A DNA stretch of 23,684 nucleotides from a virus, in IMG/VR virus record IMGVR_UViG_3300005253_000619, positions 1 to 23,684 of that record. One strand, 5' to 3'. This document shows positions 768 through 23,246 of this stretch, piece after piece. Under the pieces are notes generated by a model. The model worked only from the letters and a program-made list of their open reading frames with translations, did not search any database and was not told where the DNA came from. A program made the position numbers and the translations under genes. Numbering within the stretch: the first letter of the stretch is position 1; each line of letters begins with the position of its first letter.

Positions 768-1008
768 GGTTCGGTATGATGGGGTATGGTGGGGTAAGGT
801 CTGGTAAGATGCGATACGGTATGGTGGGGTATTTTCTTAAAAATGTAGTTTAAGATTTTCGGTTTGGTACGGCAAGCTTGGGTAAGGTGTGGTGAGTTTT
901 TGGTTTGGTGGGGTAGGGATTTTTCTTAAAAGATTTATGGTATGGTAAGGTACGATTTGGTGAGGTGAGGTAGGGTCCGGTATGGTAAGGTATGGTAAGG
1001 TGAGGTTT
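768..1008 (+). repeat. GGTNN degenerate pentamer array 1
   Basis: Tandem units of 5 nt with GGT fixed and the last two bases free. There are four in-phase blocks at 768-832 (13 units), 861-900 (8), 902-921 (4) and 939-1008 (14). About 31 of 39 units are exact; the rest are mostly one-base variants such as GAT, GTT or GGC. Blocks are separated by AT-rich spacers containing TTTTCTTAAAA. The + strand here is G/T rich with almost no C, in sharp contrast to the AT-rich surroundings. The array fills nearly the whole gap between the first gene and the endonuclease gene. The GG-N3-GG-N3-GG-N3-GG spacing is compatible with two-tier G-quadruplexes. No reading frame stays open through it. Confidence 0.9.
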
Positions 1009-1037
1009 TTTACAAACCTTTTTGATAGGATATAAAA

Positions 1038-1328
1038 TTGACTAATTTAGAAAAGATAATGAAAGATGCATTGGAAGAACAGAAGATTCCTTTTGAACAA
1101 GAATTTCCTGTTCGTTTAGGTTTTGTTTTGGATTTCGCTCTTTTAAAACAGAGAATTGCTATTGAATGTGATGGTGAGAAATGGCATGATAATCCAAAAA
1201 GAATAAAGAAAGATAGATTTAGAGATTATCTGTTAAGAAGAGCAGGATGGAAAGTGATAAGATTTAAAGGTCAAAAAATAATGGAAGATATTGATGGTTG
1301 TATAAGAGAGATTAAAGAAGTTTTATGA
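1038..1328 (+). CDS. Vsr/DUF559-like PD-(D/E)XK endonuclease
   Basis: 96 aa from a TTG start. The start is chosen because AGGA lies 7 nt upstream and the same AGGATATAAA leader precedes the next gene. The core matches the very-short-patch-repair/DUF559 nuclease fold: D32 in VLDFALL, then IAIECDGEKWH (E43, D45, H50), KKDRFRDYLL (D59, R60), and a GWKVIRF ending strand (residues 70-76). It is a minimal single-domain enzyme, likely a nicking or double-strand DNA endonuclease. It lies between GGTNN arrays 1 and 2 with almost no other non-coding sequence. It could be a mobile or homing-type nuclease or a recombination factor. The C-terminal half of the homing endonuclease at 19310 has the same core. 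Confidence 0.8.
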   Translation: MTNLEKIMKDALEEQKIPFEQEFPVRLGFVLDFALLKQRIAIECDGEKWHDNPKRIKKDRFRDYLLRRAGWKVIRFKGQKIMEDIDGCIREIKEVL

Positions 1329-1333
1329 TTTGT

Positions 1334-1604
1334 GGTTTGGTGTGGTATGGTAAGGTGAGGTATGGTACGGTGGGGTGCGGTGTGGTGAGTTAAGGTGTGG
1401 TAAGGAATTTTTATAAACAGTTTGTAATTTACGGTGAGGTGGGGTATGGTAGGGTCAGGTTTGATATGGTAAGGTAAGGTAAGTTAAGGTATGGTAAGGA
1501 ATTTTTTTAAAAGATTTAAGGTATGGCATGGTGTGATGTGGTGGTGTGAAGTACGGTCAGGTTTGGTCGGGTATGATGAGTTGAGGTATGGTGTGGTAAG
1601 GATT
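1334..1604 (+). repeat. GGTNN degenerate pentamer array 2
   Basis: Same 5-nt unit as array 1. There are three in-phase blocks at 1334-1408 (15 units), 1433-1502 (14) and 1520-1604 (17), with about 34 of 46 units exactly GGTNN. It starts 6 nt after the endonuclease stop and ends 25 nt before the next ATG. All three blocks end in GGAAT or GGATT followed by a T-run. The spacer TTTTTTTAAAAGATTTA (1503-1519) is nearly the same as the spacer in array 1 (922-938), so there is a higher-order block-spacer repeat. Block 3 is the most degenerate. Confidence 0.9.
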
Positions 1605-1629
1605 TTATAAAAATAGAGAGGATATAAAT

Positions 1630-2589
1630 ATGGGAAAAATTATTTGTTGTGGTGATACACATTTTAAAGTTGAATCACCTTTTTTTGAAGCAGGTCAAAG
1701 TTTTATGAAGTGGTTTGTTGAACAAGATTTTAATAATGAAAATAATTATTTGGTTCATTTAGGTGATGTTTATCATCAGTCTCGACCAAATCCAAGAGTT
1801 ATTAAAGTAGTTGAAAATTGGTTTTTAAATAAATTAAAATTTAAAAAGATGTATATTTTATCAGGAAATCATGGTTATAATAGAGCAAGAAACAGTTATG
1901 CAGGATCACCTTTAACTAATTTTGGAAATATTGAACTTCTTAAAGAACCACAGACATTTAATATTGAATCTTTGAAATTTTTAAGTCTTCCATATTATTA
2001 TCCTTTTATCCTCAAAGATATTCCACCAATGGAGGAATATTATTCTAATTTACCTGAAGAACTAAGAGTAAAAGTTGATTTTATAGTTAGTCATGTAGAA
2101 GATGAAACTTCTCATTTTAGTGATTATTATTGTGATTTATCATACCTTAAAGGGCAGAGAATTTCAGGGCATATTCATATCCCGTCAGGGCATTTTCTTG
2201 GTTCAGCATTTATTTCAAGATATGATGAGAAAGGAAAATCTGGCAATCTTGAAATAATTGATATAAAAACAAAGAATACTAAATTAATTCCTATCCCAAT
2301 ATTTTTAGATTATTATGATGTGAATTATCCTGATTCAATACCAAAAGTTTCAGCAGAATTTCCAATATGGAATATTCATGATATTTCAGATAAAGAAAGT
2401 GTTTTAGAACAATATCCAGATATTTATATTCATGAAATGTTTAAAAAACAAACTAGAAAAAAACTTAAAAGGAAAGATATTTCAACATCTAAAAAGTCAA
2501 TTATGGAATACTTTAAGGAATATATACAACTAAATAAGTATATAGATGATCGATTAGAAAGTAGATTAATAGAATTAATAAAAAAGTAA
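1630..2589 (+). CDS. Calcineurin-like metallophosphoesterase, MRE11/SbcD/gp47-like
   Basis: 319 aa; ATG with a GAGAGGA site. All the two-metal phosphoesterase motifs are present in order: GDTH (D9, H11), LGDVYH (D46), GNHG (N80, H81), SHVED (H155) and GHIHIP (H181, H183). The usual GNHD/E is GNHG here. The length is close to T4 gp47 (about 340 aa), the MRE11-family subunit that works with the gp46 ATPase in DNA-end processing. No SbcC/gp46 partner is in this window, so the recombination role is inference and another phosphoesterase activity is possible. The residues from about 200 onward are Lys-rich and not recognised. It is flanked on both sides by GGTNN arrays. Confidence 0.85.
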   Translation: MGKIICCGDTHFKVESPFFEAGQSFMKWFVEQDFNNENNYLVHLGDVYHQSRPNPRVIKVVENWFLNKLKFKKMYILSGNHGYNRARNSYAGSPLTNFGNIELLKEPQTFNIESLKFLSLPYYYPFILKDIPPMEEYYSNLPEELRVKVDFIVSHVEDETSHFSDYYCDLSYLKGQRISGHIHIPSGHFLGSAFISRYDEKGKSGNLEIIDIKTKNTKLIPIPIFLDYYDVNYPDSIPKVSAEFPIWNIHDISDKESVLEQYPDIYIHEMFKKQTRKKLKRKDISTSKKSIMEYFKEYIQLNKYIDDRLESRLIELIKK

Positions 2590-2598
2590 ATGTAGTCT

Positions 2599-2659
2599 GG
2601 TAAGGCAAGGTGGGATATGTTGAGGTATTGGTAAGGTTTGGTAGGGTGTGGTTTGGTTT
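2599..2659 (+). repeat. GGTNN degenerate pentamer array 3
   Basis: Twelve units, nine of them exactly GGTNN, with one single-base phase slip at 2629. It starts 10 nt after the phosphoesterase stop and occupies most of the spacer before the next gene at 2687. It is the shortest of the three arrays. No further GGTNN or reverse-complement NNACC arrays are seen in the rest of the window. Confidence 0.85.
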
Positions 2660-4493: not shown

Positions 4494-6260
4494 ATGTCAG
4501 AAAAAACTAATAAATTAATAGAACAGGAAAATAGGAAAGGATTTTTTGGAAAATTAAGAAATTATTTTTCAATAATGGTTAAAAAACCACAATTTAGTAC
4601 CACAGCAATTACAGTTCCAGCAGCAGTTATAAATGGAAAAGCGAAAGTTGTAAAATTACCTTCTGATTTAGAATTATTATGGAAATGGTGGTTAACAGAA
4701 GCTTCTGATGATGCTGAAACTTTAAAGAATCGAACAGATAGATATGATGATTTGTCTTACATGTATTATAATAATACTGTTATGTCTATGGCTACAGAAT
4801 TATATGCTGATGAGACAGTTCAAGCAGATTCACAATCACAAGTATTACAGATTACAGCAAAAAAAACTAAAGTAAAAAAATATATAGAAGATTTTTTTGA
4901 TAAAATTGGTATTACACAACCAATGTTAAAAGCTACCGCATTTGATTTGGCCCTTTATGCTGATCATTTTTGGGTAAACACATCTAATCAAAAAGAAGGT
5001 ATTACAGAAATTATTCCACTTGATGTATATACAGTTAAAGATAGAATAGAATTTAATGCGCTTGAAGCTACAAAACGGATGGATAAAAAACAAAGATTAT
5101 ATACTCAATTAATTAATAAACATGATAAACTTCAAAAATTAGCCAAGGTATTAAATGATACTAAAACTGATTATGCTTCTTATTTTAGAAAATATTTATT
5201 TGGATTCCAAATGGAAAAGGACATTTTTCTTCCACCTTGGAATATTTCACATTTTAGACGATTTTCTTCTCAATCAGAATTTTATCCATTTGGTAGACCA
5301 TTATTTATTAATTGTATTTCTCCATTTAGACAATTACAAACAAGTAAAAATTTAGTAGCAATGGCAAGAGTAGCAAAGTTCCCAAAAGAACACTTTGAAG
5401 TTGAAGTTAGTGATAGAATGACAGAAGTAGAAAAATGGAATGCAACAAATCAAGCAAGAGAAGAATATGATAATTTAGGTACAAATCAAACAGGAAAAGA
5501 GGAATTTGGTGTAGGTGGAAAAATTTGGACACCAAAAGGTCTTTTAGATTATAAATTGATTGAAAATCGAATGAAAGTTGAAGATATAAACGATTTAGAA
5601 ATGTTACGTGATGATATGATTTTAGGAACAAGGGTCCCAAAAGGATATTTAATAGTTGATAGAGCATCATTTGGAACAAGTGGTCAAGCATTATTACAAC
5701 AATTTAAACCATTTGGTAGAGCAGTTTTTTCATTACAAAGTTGTATATTAAATGAATTAATTAATTTAGTTAAATTACAATTTGTAATGACAGATGATTA
5801 TGAAGTGGATGAGCCTTTTGAAATTAGTATGAATTTTCCTGTTATTGAAGAATCAAGTGATCGTTTGCGTGTTAAAAGTGATACACTTAGATTAGCAAAT
5901 GATATTATAACAAATCTTCAAAATGCACTTGGATTAGGTAGAGGTGAAGCGATTCCACCAGAAGTTGTGAAAGATGTATTCTCAAAAATATCATTTATTG
6001 ATGTAGAAGATATTGAAGATTGGATTGATGCTATTAAACCTGAAGAAGATGTTGAGATAAAAGAATCAATAAAAAAGAAAATTAAAAATCGATTAACTGA
6101 AGAGTTAATTAAAGAGATTGAATTTAAAACAAAAAAAGATAATAGAATGTTTGAAGGTGTTTCTAGTGGTAGACATTTTTGTAATTCTTTTAAAGTAGAT
6201 AAGATGCAAAAAACTATATTAGATTTATTTAAAAATGATAGTGGAAAGTTAAAAGGTTAA
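4494..6260 (+). CDS. Portal protein, T4 gp20-like
   Basis: 588 aa. The portal is the dodecameric ring at the head vertex through which DNA is packaged and ejected. The long alpha/beta portal core is recognisable from YDDLSYMYYNNTVMSMATELYADETVQAD (about residues 83-111), the FRRFSSQSEFYPFGRPLF segment with the following stem-like helix ISPFRQLQTSKNLVAMARVAKFPKEHFEV, and an acidic C-terminal clip/tail. Length and order (portal, then protease, scaffold, capsid) fit T4-type myoviruses. The start uses a GGTGG site. The first eight residues, MSEKTNKL, are repeated at the predicted nested scaffold start at 8048. The C-terminus is Lys-rich and not conserved-looking. Confidence 0.92.
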   Translation: MSEKTNKLIEQENRKGFFGKLRNYFSIMVKKPQFSTTAITVPAAVINGKAKVVKLPSDLELLWKWWLTEASDDAETLKNRTDRYDDLSYMYYNNTVMSMATELYADETVQADSQSQVLQITAKKTKVKKYIEDFFDKIGITQPMLKATAFDLALYADHFWVNTSNQKEGITEIIPLDVYTVKDRIEFNALEATKRMDKKQRLYTQLINKHDKLQKLAKVLNDTKTDYASYFRKYLFGFQMEKDIFLPPWNISHFRRFSSQSEFYPFGRPLFINCISPFRQLQTSKNLVAMARVAKFPKEHFEVEVSDRMTEVEKWNATNQAREEYDNLGTNQTGKEEFGVGGKIWTPKGLLDYKLIENRMKVEDINDLEMLRDDMILGTRVPKGYLIVDRASFGTSGQALLQQFKPFGRAVFSLQSCILNELINLVKLQFVMTDDYEVDEPFEISMNFPVIEESSDRLRVKSDTLRLANDIITNLQNALGLGRGEAIPPEVVKDVFSKISFIDVEDIEDWIDAIKPEEDVEIKESIKKKIKNRLTEELIKEIEFKTKKDNRMFEGVSSGRHFCNSFKVDKMQKTILDLFKNDSGKLKG

Positions 6261-17152: not shown

Positions 17153-17175
17153 AAATCTAATGAATGGTTAAATAT

Positions 17176-18084
17176 ATGATAAGAATAAGAAAGTTCATAG
17201 AAGAATTTAGTACAGGTTTCAAGCTTCGTGGTTATCATGAAGTATTTGTTAATCCAACTAAGAAAGAGTTAGATATAGTTTATAATGAAAGTGATGAAAG
17301 ATTCCCTTCTATAAGATTTATAGCAAGAAATGATACCAAAGAATTATATGTTTTCAATGGCGAAATACTACATACTATTGCTATGCAAGAGATATTTAAA
17401 ATGGATGTTTTTAAAATGGTTAGTGAAGGTTCTGATATGTTACCTGGAACCATTAGAAAATTAGATGATGGATATAAATTTACATCTAGTGATTCATTAT
17501 TTGAAGGGGATATAGGGCATAGTAATCATCCTATTGCTTATATAGAATTTTTATTGGGTACAGATTGGAGTTGGATAGATAAATACATAATATTTTCCCC
17601 TTTATGGAAAAGAGCTTTAGTTCCAGATTTAGAAAAACAATTAGAAAAATTTAAAATAAAATTTTCTGAAAATAGAAAACTTCATTATAGAACTGAATTT
17701 CAAGGTTTACCTATTTCAATAGAGAATCGAAAAGGAAGTAAAAGATATTGGTATGATCCTTTAAAAGATGAATCAGGTGAAACTAAAATGAATTATGCAT
17801 ATGGTTATATTAGGTCAACAGAGGGTGCTGATGGTGATAGTATAGACTGTTATCTTGGTGATAATAAGGAATCAACAAAAGTATTTGTAGTTCATCAAAA
17901 TAATCCAAAAACAGGTAAGTTTGATGAAGATAAGGTAATGCTTGGATTTGATACAGAGAAAGAAGCTAAAAAAGCATATTTAACTCAATATGATGATCCA
18001 AAGTTTTTTGGAAGTATAACAGAAATGAATATCGATGATTTTCAGGATAAAGTAACTCATAAACAAAAAGGAAAAATTAAGTGA
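17176..18084 (+). CDS. Tagged protein: NPTKKEL domain plus pyrophosphatase-like domain
   Basis: 302 aa from the ATG at 17176. An ATG at 17164 would add MVKY, but the inner start aligns the product with seven tagged neighbours. Residues 1-10 are the tag MIRIRKFIEE. Residues about 20-150 are the family domain shared with 18313 and 18809 (YHEVFVNPTKKELDIVYNE, IRFIARNDTKELYVFN, FLLGTDWSWIDKYI). Residues about 172-290 match the inorganic-pyrophosphatase-like (InPase) domain known from phage and plasmid polyvalent proteins: GSKRYWYDPL, MNYAYGYIRSTEGADGDSIDCYLG, FVVHQNNPKTGKFDEDKVMLGFDTEKEA. The Asp/Glu-rich core suggests a metal-dependent hydrolase. The activity in this context is not known. Inferred to be packaged in the head and injected. 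Confidence 0.82.
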   Translation: MIRIRKFIEEFSTGFKLRGYHEVFVNPTKKELDIVYNESDERFPSIRFIARNDTKELYVFNGEILHTIAMQEIFKMDVFKMVSEGSDMLPGTIRKLDDGYKFTSSDSLFEGDIGHSNHPIAYIEFLLGTDWSWIDKYIIFSPLWKRALVPDLEKQLEKFKIKFSENRKLHYRTEFQGLPISIENRKGSKRYWYDPLKDESGETKMNYAYGYIRSTEGADGDSIDCYLGDNKESTKVFVVHQNNPKTGKFDEDKVMLGFDTEKEAKKAYLTQYDDPKFFGSITEMNIDDFQDKVTHKQKGKIK

Positions 18085-18320
18085 TTAAATTAAGAAAGTT
18101 TCAAGAAAGAAAATTTAGAGTAGAAGAAATTATACCTTATGATTTAGATGCATTATATTTAGATGATGAATTAATTGGATTTAATTATTTTAAGAAAACT
18201 CTTGTTGTAGCTAATTTTCCAGAATTAAAAGGTTATAATTATGTAGTAGATGATTGGATTTTAAATCCTGAAAAATCAAAACCTGCTAAATTATTTCAAA
18301 GAATTAAACAAAATGATTAA
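18081..18320 (+). CDS. Tagged small protein, 79 aa
   Basis: GTG start overlapping the previous stop by 4 nt. Begins VIKLRKFQER, the same tag as its neighbours, with a FQE end. The body (EIIPYDLDALYLDDELIGFNYFKKTLVVANFPELKGY) is a short alpha/beta sequence not recognised. The C-terminal residues ND come from the same bases that encode the next gene's start (8-nt overlap). Confidence 0.75.
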   Translation: MIKLRKFQERKFRVEEIIPYDLDALYLDDELIGFNYFKKTLVVANFPELKGYNYVVDDWILNPEKSKPAKLFQRIKQND

Positions 18321-18816
18321 AATAAGAAAGTTTAATGAAGAATTTTATGATGGTATGTTGTATGATGATACTTACCATGAAATATTCATTAATCCAACTA
18401 AAAAAGAATTAGATATAGTTTATAAAGAAGGTTTTAATATTGAAGGATACAGGGGTATTCGATTCATAGCAAAAAATGATACTAAACAATTATTTGTTTT
18501 TAATAGTGATTTATTACATGCTTATGCTGTAAAAAAAATATTTAATAAAAATGGAAAAATACTACTTGATGCAAATTATCAAATGGTTAGTGGATCAATA
18601 GAAGGAAATGATTATGTAGTTTCTGAAAGCGATACTCTTTGGGAAAGTGAAATTAAATTTAGTAATGATCCTGTAATGTATCTTGAATTTTTATTAGAAA
18701 CCGATTGGTCTTGGATTGATAAATATATTTATTTTTCAGATTGGTGGGAAGAAACTATGGTTCCAAAATTAAAACTTCAATTAATAACAATTGAACAGGA
18801 AAAATTAAGTGATTAA
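18313..18816 (+). CDS. Tagged NPTKKEL-family paralog 1
   Basis: 167 aa. ATG overlaps the previous stop by 8 nt. Tag MIKIRKFNEE, then the same domain as the first half of the 17176 product: YHEIFINPTKKELDIVYKE, GIRFIAKNDTKQLFVFN, LLHAYAVKKIFNK, MVSGSIEGNDYVVSESDTLWE and FLLETDWSWIDKYIYFSDWWE. No InPase domain. It is nearest to the paralog at 18809, so the pair looks like a recent tandem duplication. No catalytic motif seen; function unknown. Confidence 0.82.
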   Translation: MIKIRKFNEEFYDGMLYDDTYHEIFINPTKKELDIVYKEGFNIEGYRGIRFIAKNDTKQLFVFNSDLLHAYAVKKIFNKNGKILLDANYQMVSGSIEGNDYVVSESDTLWESEIKFSNDPVMYLEFLLETDWSWIDKYIYFSDWWEETMVPKLKLQLITIEQEKLSD

Positions 18817-19306
18817 AATAAGAAAGTTTAATGAAGAATTTTATGATGCTATAAACTATGGTAATTATCATGAAATATTTGTGAATCCAACTAAAAAAGA
18901 ACTGGATATAGTTTATAATGAAGGTTTTGATATTGAAGATTATCGAGGTGTTCGATTTATAGGAGATAATAGCATTAAAAAATTATATGTTTTTAATAGT
19001 AGTATTCTACATAGTACTGCTGTAAAAAAAATATTTAATAAACCTGGAAGAATTTTACTTGATCCTGATTATCAAATGATTAGCGGAATAATAGAAAATG
19101 ATGATTATATTGTTTCTAGTAGTGATTCTCTTATGTACGATATTAAAAAAGATAATAATTCTTATATGCTAGAATTTTTATTAGAAACTGATTGGTCCTG
19201 GCTTGATAAATATATTTATTTTTCAGATTGGTGGGATAAAACTATGGTTCCTGAATTAATACTTCAATCAATAAAAGTTGAACAAGGGTTAGAGGATATA
19301 GATTAA
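18809..19306 (+). CDS. Tagged NPTKKEL-family paralog 2
   Basis: 165 aa, GTG start overlapping the previous stop by 8 nt. Tag VIKIRKFNEE, then YHEIFVNPTKKELDIVYNEG, VRFIGDNSIKKLYVFNSS, QMISGIIENDDYIVSSSDS and FLLETDWSWLDKYIYFSDWWD. Closely similar to the 18313 product along its length. It is followed after 3 nt by the homing endonuclease gene, which lies at the cluster's only break in tagged genes. Confidence 0.82.
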   Translation: MIKIRKFNEEFYDAINYGNYHEIFVNPTKKELDIVYNEGFDIEDYRGVRFIGDNSIKKLYVFNSSILHSTAVKKIFNKPGRILLDPDYQMISGIIENDDYIVSSSDSLMYDIKKDNNSYMLEFLLETDWSWLDKYIYFSDWWDKTMVPELILQSIKVEQGLEDID

Positions 19307-19309
19307 AAA

Positions 19310-20197
19310 ATGAATATTCATAAATTAATTAATTTTTATAATATAGCAACAAAAAATAAAATAAATAATGGATGGAAAAAAATAAAAATAAAATATTCAT
19401 TTATTTTTAAAATGATTAAAGAAAAAACTATTTTTTTAAATAATTCTTATTCTTATCCTGAAAGGATTTATTGTATTTTATATAATATTTATAAAATACC
19501 TATATGTAATCATGAAAATTGTAAAAATGAAATTCATTTCCAAAAACAACATGGTTATTCTTATGGATTTTTAAAATATTGTGGTAGAAATTGTGCTTTA
19601 ACAAGTAAAAACAGAAATAAAAGTGTTTCTAATGGTTTAAAAGGAAATACTAATCATAAAGGAAAAAAACATTCTCTAGAAGTTAGAAAAAGAATAAGTG
19701 AAAAACATAAAGGAAAAAAGTTATCTAAAGAAACAAGAAAAAAAATATCTGAAGCTTTTAGTGGTAAAAAACACCCTATGTATGGAAAACATCATTCTGA
19801 AGAAGCAAAAAGAAAAATAAGAATTTCAACTATTAATCAAATTAAAAAACAAAAAGGGCAAATACATCCAGTTTATAATGTAAATTCTATTCAATATTTA
19901 AATTGGATTAATAGAACTTTTAATTTAAGTGGCCAATATGCAGAAAATCCTAATGAGTATCATATAAAAGATTTAGGTTATTTTATAGATTTTATAGATT
20001 TTAAAAATAAAGTAATTATTGAATGGGATGAAAAAAAACATTATGATAAAAATAATAATTTAAGAAAAAAAGATTTAAAAAGACAAAATATAATTCAAAA
20101 TTATTTTTCTGATTTTAAATTTATTAGAATTAATGAAAATAAATTTCTTTCACTTACAATTAAACAACGTTACCAATACTTTAACAAGGTGTTATAA
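19310..20197 (+). CDS. Homing endonuclease: NUMOD3 repeats and Vsr-like nuclease
   Basis: 295 aa, very AT-rich and Lys/Asn-rich compared with its neighbours. Order: a helical N-terminus; a Cys cluster (C66, C71, C91, C95) like a zinc finger; three NUMOD3-type DNA-binding repeats (NHKGKKHSLEVRKRISEKH, KGKKLSKETRKKISEAF, HPMYGKHHSEEAKRKIR, residues about 115-171); and a C-terminal nuclease core, GYFIDFIDFKNKVIIEWDEKKHYD (D227, E238, D240, H244), then RKKDLKRQNII and FKFIRI. The core resembles the Vsr/EDxHD-type and matches the endonuclease at 1038. It is free-standing and spreads by cutting unoccupied sites in related phages. It has no ribosome-binding site and no shared tag, which fits an invader of the cluster. 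Confidence 0.85.
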   Translation: MNIHKLINFYNIATKNKINNGWKKIKIKYSFIFKMIKEKTIFLNNSYSYPERIYCILYNIYKIPICNHENCKNEIHFQKQHGYSYGFLKYCGRNCALTSKNRNKSVSNGLKGNTNHKGKKHSLEVRKRISEKHKGKKLSKETRKKISEAFSGKKHPMYGKHHSEEAKRKIRISTINQIKKQKGQIHPVYNVNSIQYLNWINRTFNLSGQYAENPNEYHIKDLGYFIDFIDFKNKVIIEWDEKKHYDKNNNLRKKDLKRQNIIQNYFSDFKFIRINENKFLSLTIKQRYQYFNKVL

Positions 20198-20198
20198 A

Positions 20199-20621
20199 TT
20201 GAAAAAAACTGGCGAAATATTAAAACTAAATTTGGGGCTTGAAAAATTTAAATATGTAAAGATAGCAAGAGCATTAATATCTTCATACAAGATTTTGTTC
20301 GTTTGGTATGATAGTCGTAGACCAAATGTCCCATTGACTACACATCGAATTAGAAAATTTCCTTGGACAACTATGATTTTTTCAGGGACCGACATTTTTC
20401 ATAATACAAAAGATGGCACAACATTTGCCCCACCCGTTCCAATAAGTGAGTTTAATGGAATGATTCGTGGTGCTTTAATTATCACAGTAGATATGATTGG
20501 AAATAATCTTATAAATACAAAGTCTTTTACAAAGATATTCAGAGATAGTAAAAATCAAATTAGAATTAAATGGTATAGATATGATAAGGAACTTAAAGAG
20601 ATTAAGGTGAAATATAAATGA
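20199..20621 (+). CDS. Untagged hypothetical protein next to the homing endonuclease
   Basis: 140 aa from a TTG start chosen because AAGGTG lies 6 nt upstream. An ATG at 20133 would overlap the endonuclease by 65 nt and add shadow sequence. The product begins LKKTGEILKLNLG without the tag found in all other genes of the cluster. The body (KILFVWYDSRRPNVPLTTHRIRKFPWTTMIFSGTDIF, then FNGMIRGALIITVDMIG) is not recognised and has a richer codon use than its neighbours. The tag may have been lost when the endonuclease gene entered, or this may never have been a tagged gene. Confidence 0.7.
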   Translation: MKKTGEILKLNLGLEKFKYVKIARALISSYKILFVWYDSRRPNVPLTTHRIRKFPWTTMIFSGTDIFHNTKDGTTFAPPVPISEFNGMIRGALIITVDMIGNNLINTKSFTKIFRDSKNQIRIKWYRYDKELKEIKVKYK

Positions 20622-22222
20622 TAAAAATTAGAAAATTTATAGAGAAAACTTTTAATATTGAACAAAGAGATGTTGAATTACTTATGGAACCTTTTAAAAT
20701 TTTTATAAATGATTTGACAAATAAAGGTAAAGAATATTTTAATTATTACCATATTTCAGATGCAATTATAGAAGGAAATGATTGGCAATTTATAAAGCTT
20801 TCATCAGGTGATTTAATATCTGAAGATTGTAAAAAAGCACATTTAATTAATCCAGTAAAAATATACATTGGAATTTTTAAAGAAGGTAATTATTATATGC
20901 CATCAGCAGGTTTAATTTCAATTTCTATAAGTTATAGTTTTCTTTCTTTGTTATTTCAGACTATGAATGCTGATTATAACGAAGAACTTTTTTTACCTAT
21001 TGATTTCAAAAAATTACTTATGCATACAACATTATCAAATGTTGATAAAGCATTAACAGAAATAACTGAATTAAAATGGGAAAATTCTATACATCATGAA
21101 CTTGCACATTGGTTAGATGATACATTCCATTCATTACATATTGGTAAAACTTTACAAAAAACTAAAGGTAAAATAGCACCATATTATGGTGTTAAAAATA
21201 TTAATGTTTCTCATATGGAAATTGAAGCACAAATTCATAGTATAAAATTTTTAAAACAAAAGTTTGCTAATGTTTGGGATACTTTTACTATTTTTGATGT
21301 ACTCAATAAAGATACAAGTATGAGATTTATTTATCAAGGTCTATCACATGAAGAACGTAAAATATGGATAGATCATTTACTTAAAAGAATGGCAAGAGAA
21401 AAATTAATCGGTCGAAATATGACTTATATTCCTAATGATGATAGAATTTTAATAGAAGCTTTAATTGAAGATCAAGTAAATTATATTAAACCTATTTATA
21501 ATGGAACAATTATAGAGATTACAAAACAACTTCTTGAAAAGAATAAAGATTTTGAAATAAAAGAATTTAAAGAAGATTTACTTAATATTTTACACGAATA
21601 TACAATATCTGATCTTAGAAGTAATGCTTCAAACCCACATGAAAAAAAGTTTTTAAAAACCAGACAAAAGAAAGGAGAGCAAGGTTCTTTTCTTGTTGGC
21701 TTAAGTTGGAATGATCGTAATAAACGAGCAGTAGGGAAAGAAAGATATACTTCTACACTTACACTTACTTTTAAAATTCAACCTACTTATAAAGATTCAC
21801 AAGGTAATTATACAAAGAAAGGTAATCAAACAGGTACTAAGAAAAATTATCAAATTAAATTACAATTTCAAGCTATTAATGATTGGGTAGAAAGTAGACA
21901 AGCATTTTTGGAACTTACTAGGGGTGAACAAGTAGAATTTATAAGAGGTATAATAAAAGGTGCTGATGTAAAAATATGGAGTGATGATCCAAGTTGGTTA
22001 TACCAAGGGCATTATGAGAATGCAGTTGAATTAGATTATTCACTTTATGAATGGCCAGGTAATATTCCAAGAGCTAAAGGAAGATGGGCATTAATAAAAA
22101 CAGGAAGTACAACAACCCCTTATTTCTCACTTAGTAAACATATGATTGAAGTACTCACAGTTATTCCTTTTATTCCTGATGAAATTGCAAGTATGATTCG
22201 AAAGGAGTATGGAAGTGATTAA
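20618..22222 (+). CDS. Tagged zinc metalloprotease (HExxH)
   Basis: 534 aa; ATG overlaps the previous stop by 4 nt. Tag MIKIRKFIEK, then a large N-terminal domain. The zincin motif HHELAHWLDD is at residues 159-168 (H160, E161, H164), with a likely third ligand in SHMEIEAQIHS (E201 or E203). A helical middle follows. The C-terminal domain (about 345-520) contains LRSNASNPHEKKFLKTRQKKGEQGSFLVGLSWNDRN and DVKIWSDDPSWLYQGHYENA, ending PYFSLSKHMIEVL. That last stretch resembles the CSCPDFxYR ... CKH motif of some phage proteins, with the Cys lost; this is tentative. If packaged in the head, it would be injected and could act on host proteins, or it may process the prohead core. Confidence 0.85.
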   Translation: MIKIRKFIEKTFNIEQRDVELLMEPFKIFINDLTNKGKEYFNYYHISDAIIEGNDWQFIKLSSGDLISEDCKKAHLINPVKIYIGIFKEGNYYMPSAGLISISISYSFLSLLFQTMNADYNEELFLPIDFKKLLMHTTLSNVDKALTEITELKWENSIHHELAHWLDDTFHSLHIGKTLQKTKGKIAPYYGVKNINVSHMEIEAQIHSIKFLKQKFANVWDTFTIFDVLNKDTSMRFIYQGLSHEERKIWIDHLLKRMAREKLIGRNMTYIPNDDRILIEALIEDQVNYIKPIYNGTIIEITKQLLEKNKDFEIKEFKEDLLNILHEYTISDLRSNASNPHEKKFLKTRQKKGEQGSFLVGLSWNDRNKRAVGKERYTSTLTLTFKIQPTYKDSQGNYTKKGNQTGTKKNYQIKLQFQAINDWVESRQAFLELTRGEQVEFIRGIIKGADVKIWSDDPSWLYQGHYENAVELDYSLYEWPGNIPRAKGRWALIKTGSTTTPYFSLSKHMIEVLTVIPFIPDEIASMIRKEYGSD

Positions 22223-22682
22223 AATAAGAAATTTTAAAGAAGAATGGGTTGATGGTTTAAAAATTAAACCTGATCATTGGAATGATCTTGGTTATTATGA
22301 AATATTCAAAAATCCTTCTAAAAAAGAATTAAATGATTCAGATGGTTATGATACAAGGGGTGTAATTTTAAAAAATGGTGATTTTTATATTGTGTCACCA
22401 TCTGAAGAATTAATTCATGTTAGTTTACTTAAAATATTAAGTACAATAAAAATAATAACAACTAAATGGATTGATGATGATTGGGGAAAAGATGGAGATA
22501 GTCTTACTGAATTTTTATGTGTAGAACGTGCCGGAGATTCATTTGATTTTTATCAATCTGAAAGTTATTTTATAAAAATAATGCCTTCACTTTTTGAAGA
22601 ATATAAAATAAATTTTAAAAAAAATAATCCTTTTTATACATTATTTACTCGTTCTGAACGTGTGTTTAATTTAAATGATTAA
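22215..22682 (+). CDS. Tagged diverged NPTKKEL-family protein
   Basis: 155 aa from GTG at 22215. An ATG at 22209 would add ME, but the GTG start restores the tag VIKIRNFKEE and the same 8-nt overlap with the upstream stop seen at other junctions. The body has YYEIFKNPSKKELNDSDGYDTRGVILKNGDFYIVSPSEELIH, an evident distant relative of the domain in 17176, 18313 and 18809. The WSWxDKY segment is missing and the C-terminal half is different. Function unknown. Confidence 0.78.
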   Translation: MIKIRNFKEEWVDGLKIKPDHWNDLGYYEIFKNPSKKELNDSDGYDTRGVILKNGDFYIVSPSEELIHVSLLKILSTIKIITTKWIDDDWGKDGDSLTEFLCVERAGDSFDFYQSESYFIKIMPSLFEEYKINFKKNNPFYTLFTRSERVFNLND

Positions 22683-22701
22683 AATAAAGAAATCTAAATG
22701 A
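22675..22701 (+). CDS. Eight-residue tag-only mini-ORF
   Basis: ATG ATT AAA ATA AAG AAA TCT AAA TGA encodes MIKIKKSK. It starts inside the end of the 22215 gene with the usual 8-nt overlap and ends on the ATG of the next gene. It looks like a relic of a tagged gene whose body was lost, or a coupling peptide that hands ribosomes to the next start. Confidence 0.35.
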   Translation: MIKIKKSK

Positions 22702-23246
22702 TTAAAATAAAAAATTTTAAAGAAAATATTGATTGGGATGATTATGATAATATTAGAAAATGGATTCAAGCATATCAAAGAGAAAGTGATAAAATATCAA
22801 TTAAAAAAGTTTTAAGATATGCAAATAATGATGAATTTCGTGATAAAAATAAAAAATATGTTTTGTACAGAGGTATATATTTAAGAGATGAAGAAGGTTA
22901 TATAGATTCTTATGATTTAAAACAAATAAAAAAAGATAAAATATTTTTTCCTGAAAGATTACAAATTTCATGGACATTTAATAAAAATCAAGCTTATGGG
23001 TTTGCTATTGGTAATAAAACTTGGTTGGATTCAAAAAGAGAATTAACATCTCAAGCTAGATTTTATAAACATTATGGCATTATTTTAAAACAAGACTTTA
23101 GTTTAAATGAAATAATATTTGATTTTAATTATATAGATAAAAATAATGAATATTTAAAAAATATAATTGATTTTCCTATGGAAGAAGAAGTTATTATTAA
23201 TCCTTTTAAATATAAATTTTTTAAAATAATCGAATTATTGGAGTAA
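22698..23246 (+). CDS. Tagged ADP-ribosyltransferase
   Basis: 182 aa. Tag MIKIKNFKEN, then an ADP-ribosyltransferase of the R-S-E type: KYVLYRGIYL with R58, QISWTFNKNQAYGFA with S91-W92-T93 in the place of the STS strand, and FPMEEEVII with the ExE pair (E162, E164) near the end. The order, spacing and length fit single-domain toxin/phage mono-ADP-ribosyltransferases such as T4 ModA/ModB. T4 Alt, a larger member, is packaged in the head by an N-terminal targeting sequence and injected to modify host RNA polymerase, which is the best model for this protein. The target and activity here are inferred. Confidence 0.85.
   Translation: MIKIKNFKENIDWDDYDNIRKWIQAYQRESDKISIKKVLRYANNDEFRDKNKKYVLYRGIYLRDEEGYIDSYDLKQIKKDKIFFPERLQISWTFNKNQAYGFAIGNKTWLDSKRELTSQARFYKHYGIILKQDFSLNEIIFDFNYIDKNNEYLKNIIDFPMEEEVIINPFKYKFFKIIELLE

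Follow-up and report, generated by a model that had tools for sequence, protein, structure and literature searches.

Organization of the locus

The window analysed here is the whole stretch of 23,684 nucleotides of IMG/VR virus record IMGVR_UViG_3300005253_000619. It starts 152 bases upstream of a gene at 153-698 that encodes a protein of 181 amino acids, and behind this gene three intergenic spacers (699-1037, 1329-1629 and 2590-2686) hold arrays of GGTNN pentamers in which the NN bases are free. The spacers contain 31, 35 and 9 GGT triplets, respectively, 75 in all, nearly all of them spaced by multiples of 5 nt. Pairs of GGT at a lag of 5 nt number 54 on the whole + strand and 0 on the - strand, and the 273 GGT outside the spacers include only 2 such pairs. 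Five GGTNN units followed by a sixth GGT were matched 13 times on the + strand of the window and never on the - strand, and a reversed-pattern control gave no match. C is scarce in the spacers, occupying 22 of 339, 9 of 301 and 3 of 97 positions. These counts bear out an original prediction for this DNA, which had described the arrays as lying on one strand, poor in C and absent from the rest of the window. It had also proposed three arrays with about 97 units, about 74 of them exact; the three arrays are real, with 75 GGT in register, whereas counting by hand gave about 92 units, including GGC, GAT and GTT variants. The prediction missed the decisive upstream gene at 153-698 and the division of the arrays into blocks with tails.

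There are seven such blocks, of 11 to 16 units each, and an AT-rich tail closes every one. We call them vrRNA1 to vrRNA7, after the guide RNAs of a published system described below; all the features of the locus lie on the + strand. A strong hairpin at 707-753, between the stop codon of the upstream gene and the first block (-20.4 kcal/mol, z of -4.2, with 0 of 200 shuffles as good), is a possible terminator or processing element. It is followed by vrRNA1 (768-860, with 13 units at 768-832), vrRNA2 (861-938, with 11 units at 861-916, one of them of 6 nt rather than 5, and the tail GGATTTTTCTTAAAAGATTTAT) and vrRNA3 (939-1030, with 13 to 14 units at 939-1008). Between the first and second arrays a gene with a TTG start (1038-1328) encodes a protein of the MTES_1575/DUF559 endonuclease fold (PF18741, E=2.7e-14; PF04480, E=2.4e-13). 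The second array consists of vrRNA4 (1334-1432, with 14 units at 1334-1403), vrRNA5 (1433-1519, with 13 units at 1433-1497 and the tail GGAATTTTTTTAAAAGATTTAA) and vrRNA6 (1520-1620, with 16 units at 1520-1599). Between it and the third array lies the gene of a calcineurin-like metallophosphoesterase (1630-2589; start MGKIICCGDTHFKVES; PF00149, E=1.6e-8), which has a weak similarity to SbcD (NCBIfam sbcd, E=2.7e-4, under the family cut-off). The third array is vrRNA7 alone (2599-2672), the most degenerate of the blocks, with about 12 units at 2599-2659, one of 6 nt, and a short tail. The tails resemble GGA-ATTTTT-n-TTAAAAG-ATTTA, and the junction GGTAA-GGA-ATTTT is common to several blocks. 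Judged by folding energies, the tails fold weakly, and an Rfam search at the arrays found neither a hammerhead ribozyme nor any other family.

Far downstream in the window, seven proteins (17164-18084, 18081-18320, 18313-18816, 18809-19306, 20618-22222, 22209-22682 and 22698-23246) share an N-terminal peptide like MIKIRKFxEE, while their bodies are largely different; the body of one is a PF18823 inorganic-pyrophosphatase domain. Such a peptide might mark internal head proteins for the capsid, as a targeting or sorting signal. Within the run of these proteins, 19310-20197 encodes a protein with NUMOD3 and a DUF559 fold, which is probably a homing endonuclease.

A Vipr-family protein encoded upstream of the arrays

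In a phmmer search of solved structures, the product of 153-698 matched PDB 36pp, the SUSP1 Vipr protein, with E=1.3e-11. It also belongs to phrog_4652 (E=6e-22), a family of no assigned function. An AlphaFold2 model built from a 34-member alignment had a pLDDT of 93.7, and its best structural matches were Csm3 and type VII Cas7-like chains (VIA Z of about 13 over about 160 residues). Residues G157, G161, R166 and G170 are invariant in the 34 homologues, the glycine-rich G-loop is conserved and the reading frame is intact. Judged by its sequence and its modelled fold, 153-698 is a Vipr-family gene for a RAMP (Cas7/Csm3-like) protein, and it is the key gene of the locus, although it lies outside the segment to which the original prediction was confined. 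The closest relatives of the protein, in loci L068 and L048, are 43-44% identical to it. In a tree, where deep support is weak, it falls outside the SUSP1 group. The sequence comparisons thus place the locus in a divergent VIPR lineage outside that group. Another homologue, 43% identical, is encoded in IMGVR_UViG_3300014202_001563, where no run of three GGTNN units was present in the 12 kb examined; the array of that virus may lie beyond this stretch or may have been lost.

VIPR (Viral Interference Programmable Repeat) is a CRISPR-related system of phages described in a 2026 preprint (PMC13142463). It consists of a RAMP protein and of vrRNAs with 9-16 YNNGG repeats and a 3' tail, and in the published model the GGY triplets are held by the Vipr protein while the NN bases carry the target sequence (PMC13142463). 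The vrRNA pairs with double-stranded DNA in the pattern NNxNNx, the single skipped nucleotide being mostly the wobble base, and the ribonucleoprotein acts as a repressor of genes that belong to competing phages and satellites; according to the preprint, this is the first guide system with a noncontiguous reading of DNA (PMC13142463). Our positive control, SUSP1 itself (KT454805), has runs of GGT and NN with tails on either side of its Vipr gene. In the window we likewise find a RAMP protein with an RRM core and a G-loop, GGY/NN repeats numbering 11-16 per vrRNA with free NN and some GAT or GTT units, and intergenic arrays that flank vipr. Because protein, repeats and layout all agree, we conclude with high confidence, from sequence, from the modelled protein and by analogy with the published system, that the locus is very probably a phage-encoded VIPR system in which the GGTNN arrays would be guide-RNA (vrRNA) genes. 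The original prediction knew of no such element in phages, a statement now overtaken by the publication of VIPR (PMC13142463).

Arrays and vipr in other viruses

We scanned 2.9 million viral contigs (IMG/VR) for (GGTNN)6GGT and obtained at least 120 stretches. Among the matches listed, many are pentamer repeats of a simple kind or isolated short matches; about 45 loci have many units with near-maximal entropy at NN, at 29-64% GC. In the richest loci that we read, blocks of about 9-13 units are separated by a short conserved element that is specific to the contig (GGCAGTT, GGCTAATG, GGAATGGTTTAATGAATTTAATTTA and others). The search for (GGTNN)n in viral genomes, which had been suggested as a check, recovered the same element in dozens of independent contigs of 29-64% GC, which makes an assembly artefact an unlikely source of the arrays. 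Comparison among relatives, the other suggested check, showed that the number of units and the NN bases vary while GGT is kept; the proposed selection on spaced GG(T) contacts, with NN left free, was a correct reading.

The association with the protein is close. From the matches listed, 44 other virus records were picked solely because they contain degenerate GGTNN arrays; phrog_4652 was present in 40 of them and in 0 of 14 control genomes. In relatives the intergenic arrays adjoin vipr, as they do at 768-2659 in the window, and in L068 the array lies directly behind the homologue of 153-698. Where arrays and vipr could both be mapped (39 loci), the nearest arrays were on the strand of vipr in all but L063.

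These data bear on the proposal that recombination or replication proteins of the phage bind the arrays as double-stranded DNA, or that the arrays are G-rich DNA that folds into quadruplexes. A GG every 5 nt could indeed give two-tier quadruplexes, and in relatives ERF, an SMC/AAA protein and a gp32-like protein are found among the neighbours of vipr. This proposal leaves unexplained the tie to a RAMP protein, the block-plus-tail arrangement, the strand fixed relative to vipr and the codon-like NN described below; the association with Vipr largely refutes it, and we consider it extremely improbable. The recombination-protein element of the original prediction gives way, on the same evidence, to guide-RNA genes.

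Fit of the NN bases to codon positions 1 and 2

If NN were to pair with target genes while the wobble base was skipped, NN should fit codon positions 1 and 2. Across the window, the 90 NN agree with the sense codon positions 1-2 of this phage's genes better than with any other frame, by 26 bits; the scoring was against the phage's own genes, and a base composition common to both explains part of the fit. TA, the prefix of Tyr and stop codons, occurs in 0 of the 90. In other loci, 149 vrRNAs again put these codon positions at the top, both in total and by count. All-against-all matching of guides over 2.2 Mb of loci did not distinguish among skips of 0, 1 and 2, and Pfam gave no match to the decoded guide peptides, which are very short.

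Guides of the relatives matched genes of their own loci only slightly above chance. Guides compared with neighbouring genes gave two sense-frame matches with z>4 among 141, in L127 and L084, which at the sequence level are suggestive only; a match in L023 was outside the expected frame. In L127, the vrRNA at 6181 matches a gene of its own contig (7735-8475) at 22 of 28 letters in the sense codon frame. The corresponding figures are 20 of 28 for L084 (vrRNA at 5658, gene at 4762-5649) and 22 of 30 for L012 (vrRNA at 1243, gene at 905-1243). By sequence, these three guides look as if they were aimed at diverged alleles of a nearby gene.

vrRNA6 and the phosphoesterase gene

When its NN are read as codons (IIVVGDTHFRIEDIVK), vrRNA6 decodes as I-I-V-V-G-D/E-T-H/Q-F/L-R-I-D/E-D/E-I-V-K/N, a sequence that resembles the first motif, at the N-terminus, of calcineurin-like metallophosphoesterases. 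The first ten units, comprising 20 NN bases, have one exact match in the 2.9 million contigs of IMG/VR. This match, in locus L159, falls in the reading frame of an SbcD/Mre11-like phosphoesterase that another phage encodes, at the N-terminal residues IMVVGDTHFR. The 20-base patterns of vrRNA1 and vrRNA4 gave no match in exact scans of IMG/VR with a 1-nt skip, and the background for the vrRNA6 match is therefore low. Units 1-10 of vrRNA6 match L159 by construction; beyond them only 2 of the 6 remaining units do so, and L159 is therefore taken as a homologue of the target and not as the target itself. An inner part of vrRNA6 had no match in the exact 1-nt-skip scan of IMG/VR, and the C-terminal half of vrRNA6 had 19, none in a phosphoesterase, which we attribute to chance. 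No complete natural target was found in the scans made of IMG/VR (with vrRNA1, vrRNA4 and vrRNA6) and of GTDB (with vrRNA6), and searching phages by tblastn with the vrRNA6 peptide, or with the phosphoesterase, gave no match. In GTDB genomes vrRNA6 matched one intergenic repeat family of two MAGs, also taken as chance; this dispersed repeat (ATAATAGTAGTCGGTGAAACGCATTTGCG; L162-L172) belongs to two Clostridia/Oscillospiraceae MAGs. On these sequence matches, vrRNA6 is likely to be directed at the metallophosphoesterase gene of a rival phage.

The main alternative is that vrRNA6 regulates the phosphoesterase of its own phage. About 10 bases separate the tail of vrRNA6 from that gene, which lies downstream and whose start (IICCGDTHFKVES) is the best match on the + strand of the window for the first nine NN, with 14 of 18 letters and hence with mismatches. 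When all 16 units are counted, the agreement is only 18 of 32 letters (32nd of 23,634 positions). Where the guide has the codons VV, R and I, the gene has CC, K and V, a pattern that an escaped allele would show. Regulation of the phage's own gene is accordingly judged distinctly unlikely. If a rival's gene is the target, the resident copy, which differs at several of the paired positions, would be spared.

The GAT and GTT units, the two units of 6 nt and the short, irregular vrRNA7 raise the question of whether the arrays have decayed and are without function in this phage. The NN of degenerate units keep the codon reading, since TGTGA and AGTAC of vrRNA6 supply D and T of GDTH, and vipr is intact. 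Decay of the arrays as a whole seems to us very unlikely; vrRNA7 by itself may have decayed.

The two nuclease genes between the arrays

The original prediction had placed the arrays around two nuclease genes. At the heart of the system are probably not these two but the Vipr gene upstream. Among 38 other loci, a DUF559/MTES_1575 gene adjoins vipr in none and a phosphoesterase is found near it in one (L052), and in the closest relatives, L068 and L048, the array lies directly behind vipr and neither gene is present. Genes for phosphoesterases and for DUF559 enzymes are frequent in phages at large. The searches found no close relative of the window phage or of its phosphoesterase. The two genes could encode accessory proteins in this lineage, or they could be ordinary genes of a phage. 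A different reading would make one or both of them true Vap effectors, so that the target would be cut and not repressed. Both genes lie between vrRNA arrays, and predicted nucleases are accessory genes in some types of VIPR, namely only types III and V (PMC13142463). Set against this are the frequency of such enzymes in phages and their lack of conservation beside vipr in the other loci, nearest relatives included, and we regard an effector role as possible and rather doubtful. A search for a homologue of vap1 found none in the window, with its 152 bases upstream of vipr.

Proposed mechanism and implications

By analogy with published VIPR, the arrays would be transcribed into vrRNAs, and Vipr subunits would polymerise along each of these and grip the GGY triplets. 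The exposed NN would then pair with double-stranded DNA as NNxNNxNN, with a skip of 1 nt. Guides would be directed at coding sequence, so that the wobble base is the one skipped, and the complex would keep the genes of competing phages or satellites from being transcribed. We can also imagine a variant whose guides lie next to genes and are directed at the alleles of those genes in rivals. Here the array beside the phosphoesterase gene would encode a guide against the homologue in other phages, the diverged resident allele would give self-protection and the nucleases between the arrays would be accessory effectors that cut the target; as a whole this is unlikely. In such an arrangement, gene and guide would be passed on together as a selfish unit.

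The locus adds a divergent phage example of VIPR outside the SUSP1 group. The advance is a modest one. It consists of evidence for the codon-phase code that is independent of the published work and comes from sequence alone, in that NN appear to act as codon positions 1-2, and of a guide apparently aimed at homologues of the adjoining gene, which bears on the origin of guides and on the avoidance of self-targeting.

Comparison with known systems

The sites of TRAP, the trp RNA-binding attenuation protein, are (G/U)AG-NN repeats. Like the arrays of the window they are tandem triplets with two free bases between them, read by a protein oligomer. The triplet differs, a RAMP protein takes the place of TRAP, of which no homologue was noticed in the window, and here NN appear to be informative.

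The backbone RAMPs of class 1 CRISPR-Cas (Csm3/Cas7) are alike in fold and in the G-loop and, on the proposed mechanism, also in forming a helical polymer on a guide RNA and in the periodic interruption of pairing. In those systems the period is 6 nt with 5 paired bases, whereas the unit of the window has 5 nt, of which 2 would be paired, and the protein is a single small subunit. Identity with CRISPR-Cas was rejected: neither a repeat-spacer array of the CRISPR kind nor any other cas gene was seen, the variable part is itself GGTNN, and Pfam found no Cas family in ten window genes. VIPR is a proposed ancestor of the CRISPR RAMP effectors.

The closest comparison is with the type II VIPR of Escherichia phage SUSP1 (PDB 36pp; PMC13142463). 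The window Vipr is distant from that of SUSP1, with similarity chiefly in the C-terminal 60 residues, the tails are AT-rich and without a clear strong fold, the arrays are split by the DUF559 and phosphoesterase genes, and several units (GAT, GTT) depart from the GGY consensus of the preprint (PMC13142463). Both systems are phage-borne, and they have in common a Vipr RAMP protein, (GGY)NN vrRNAs in which a 3' tail follows 9-16 units, and intergenic arrays that lie beside vipr on the same strand.
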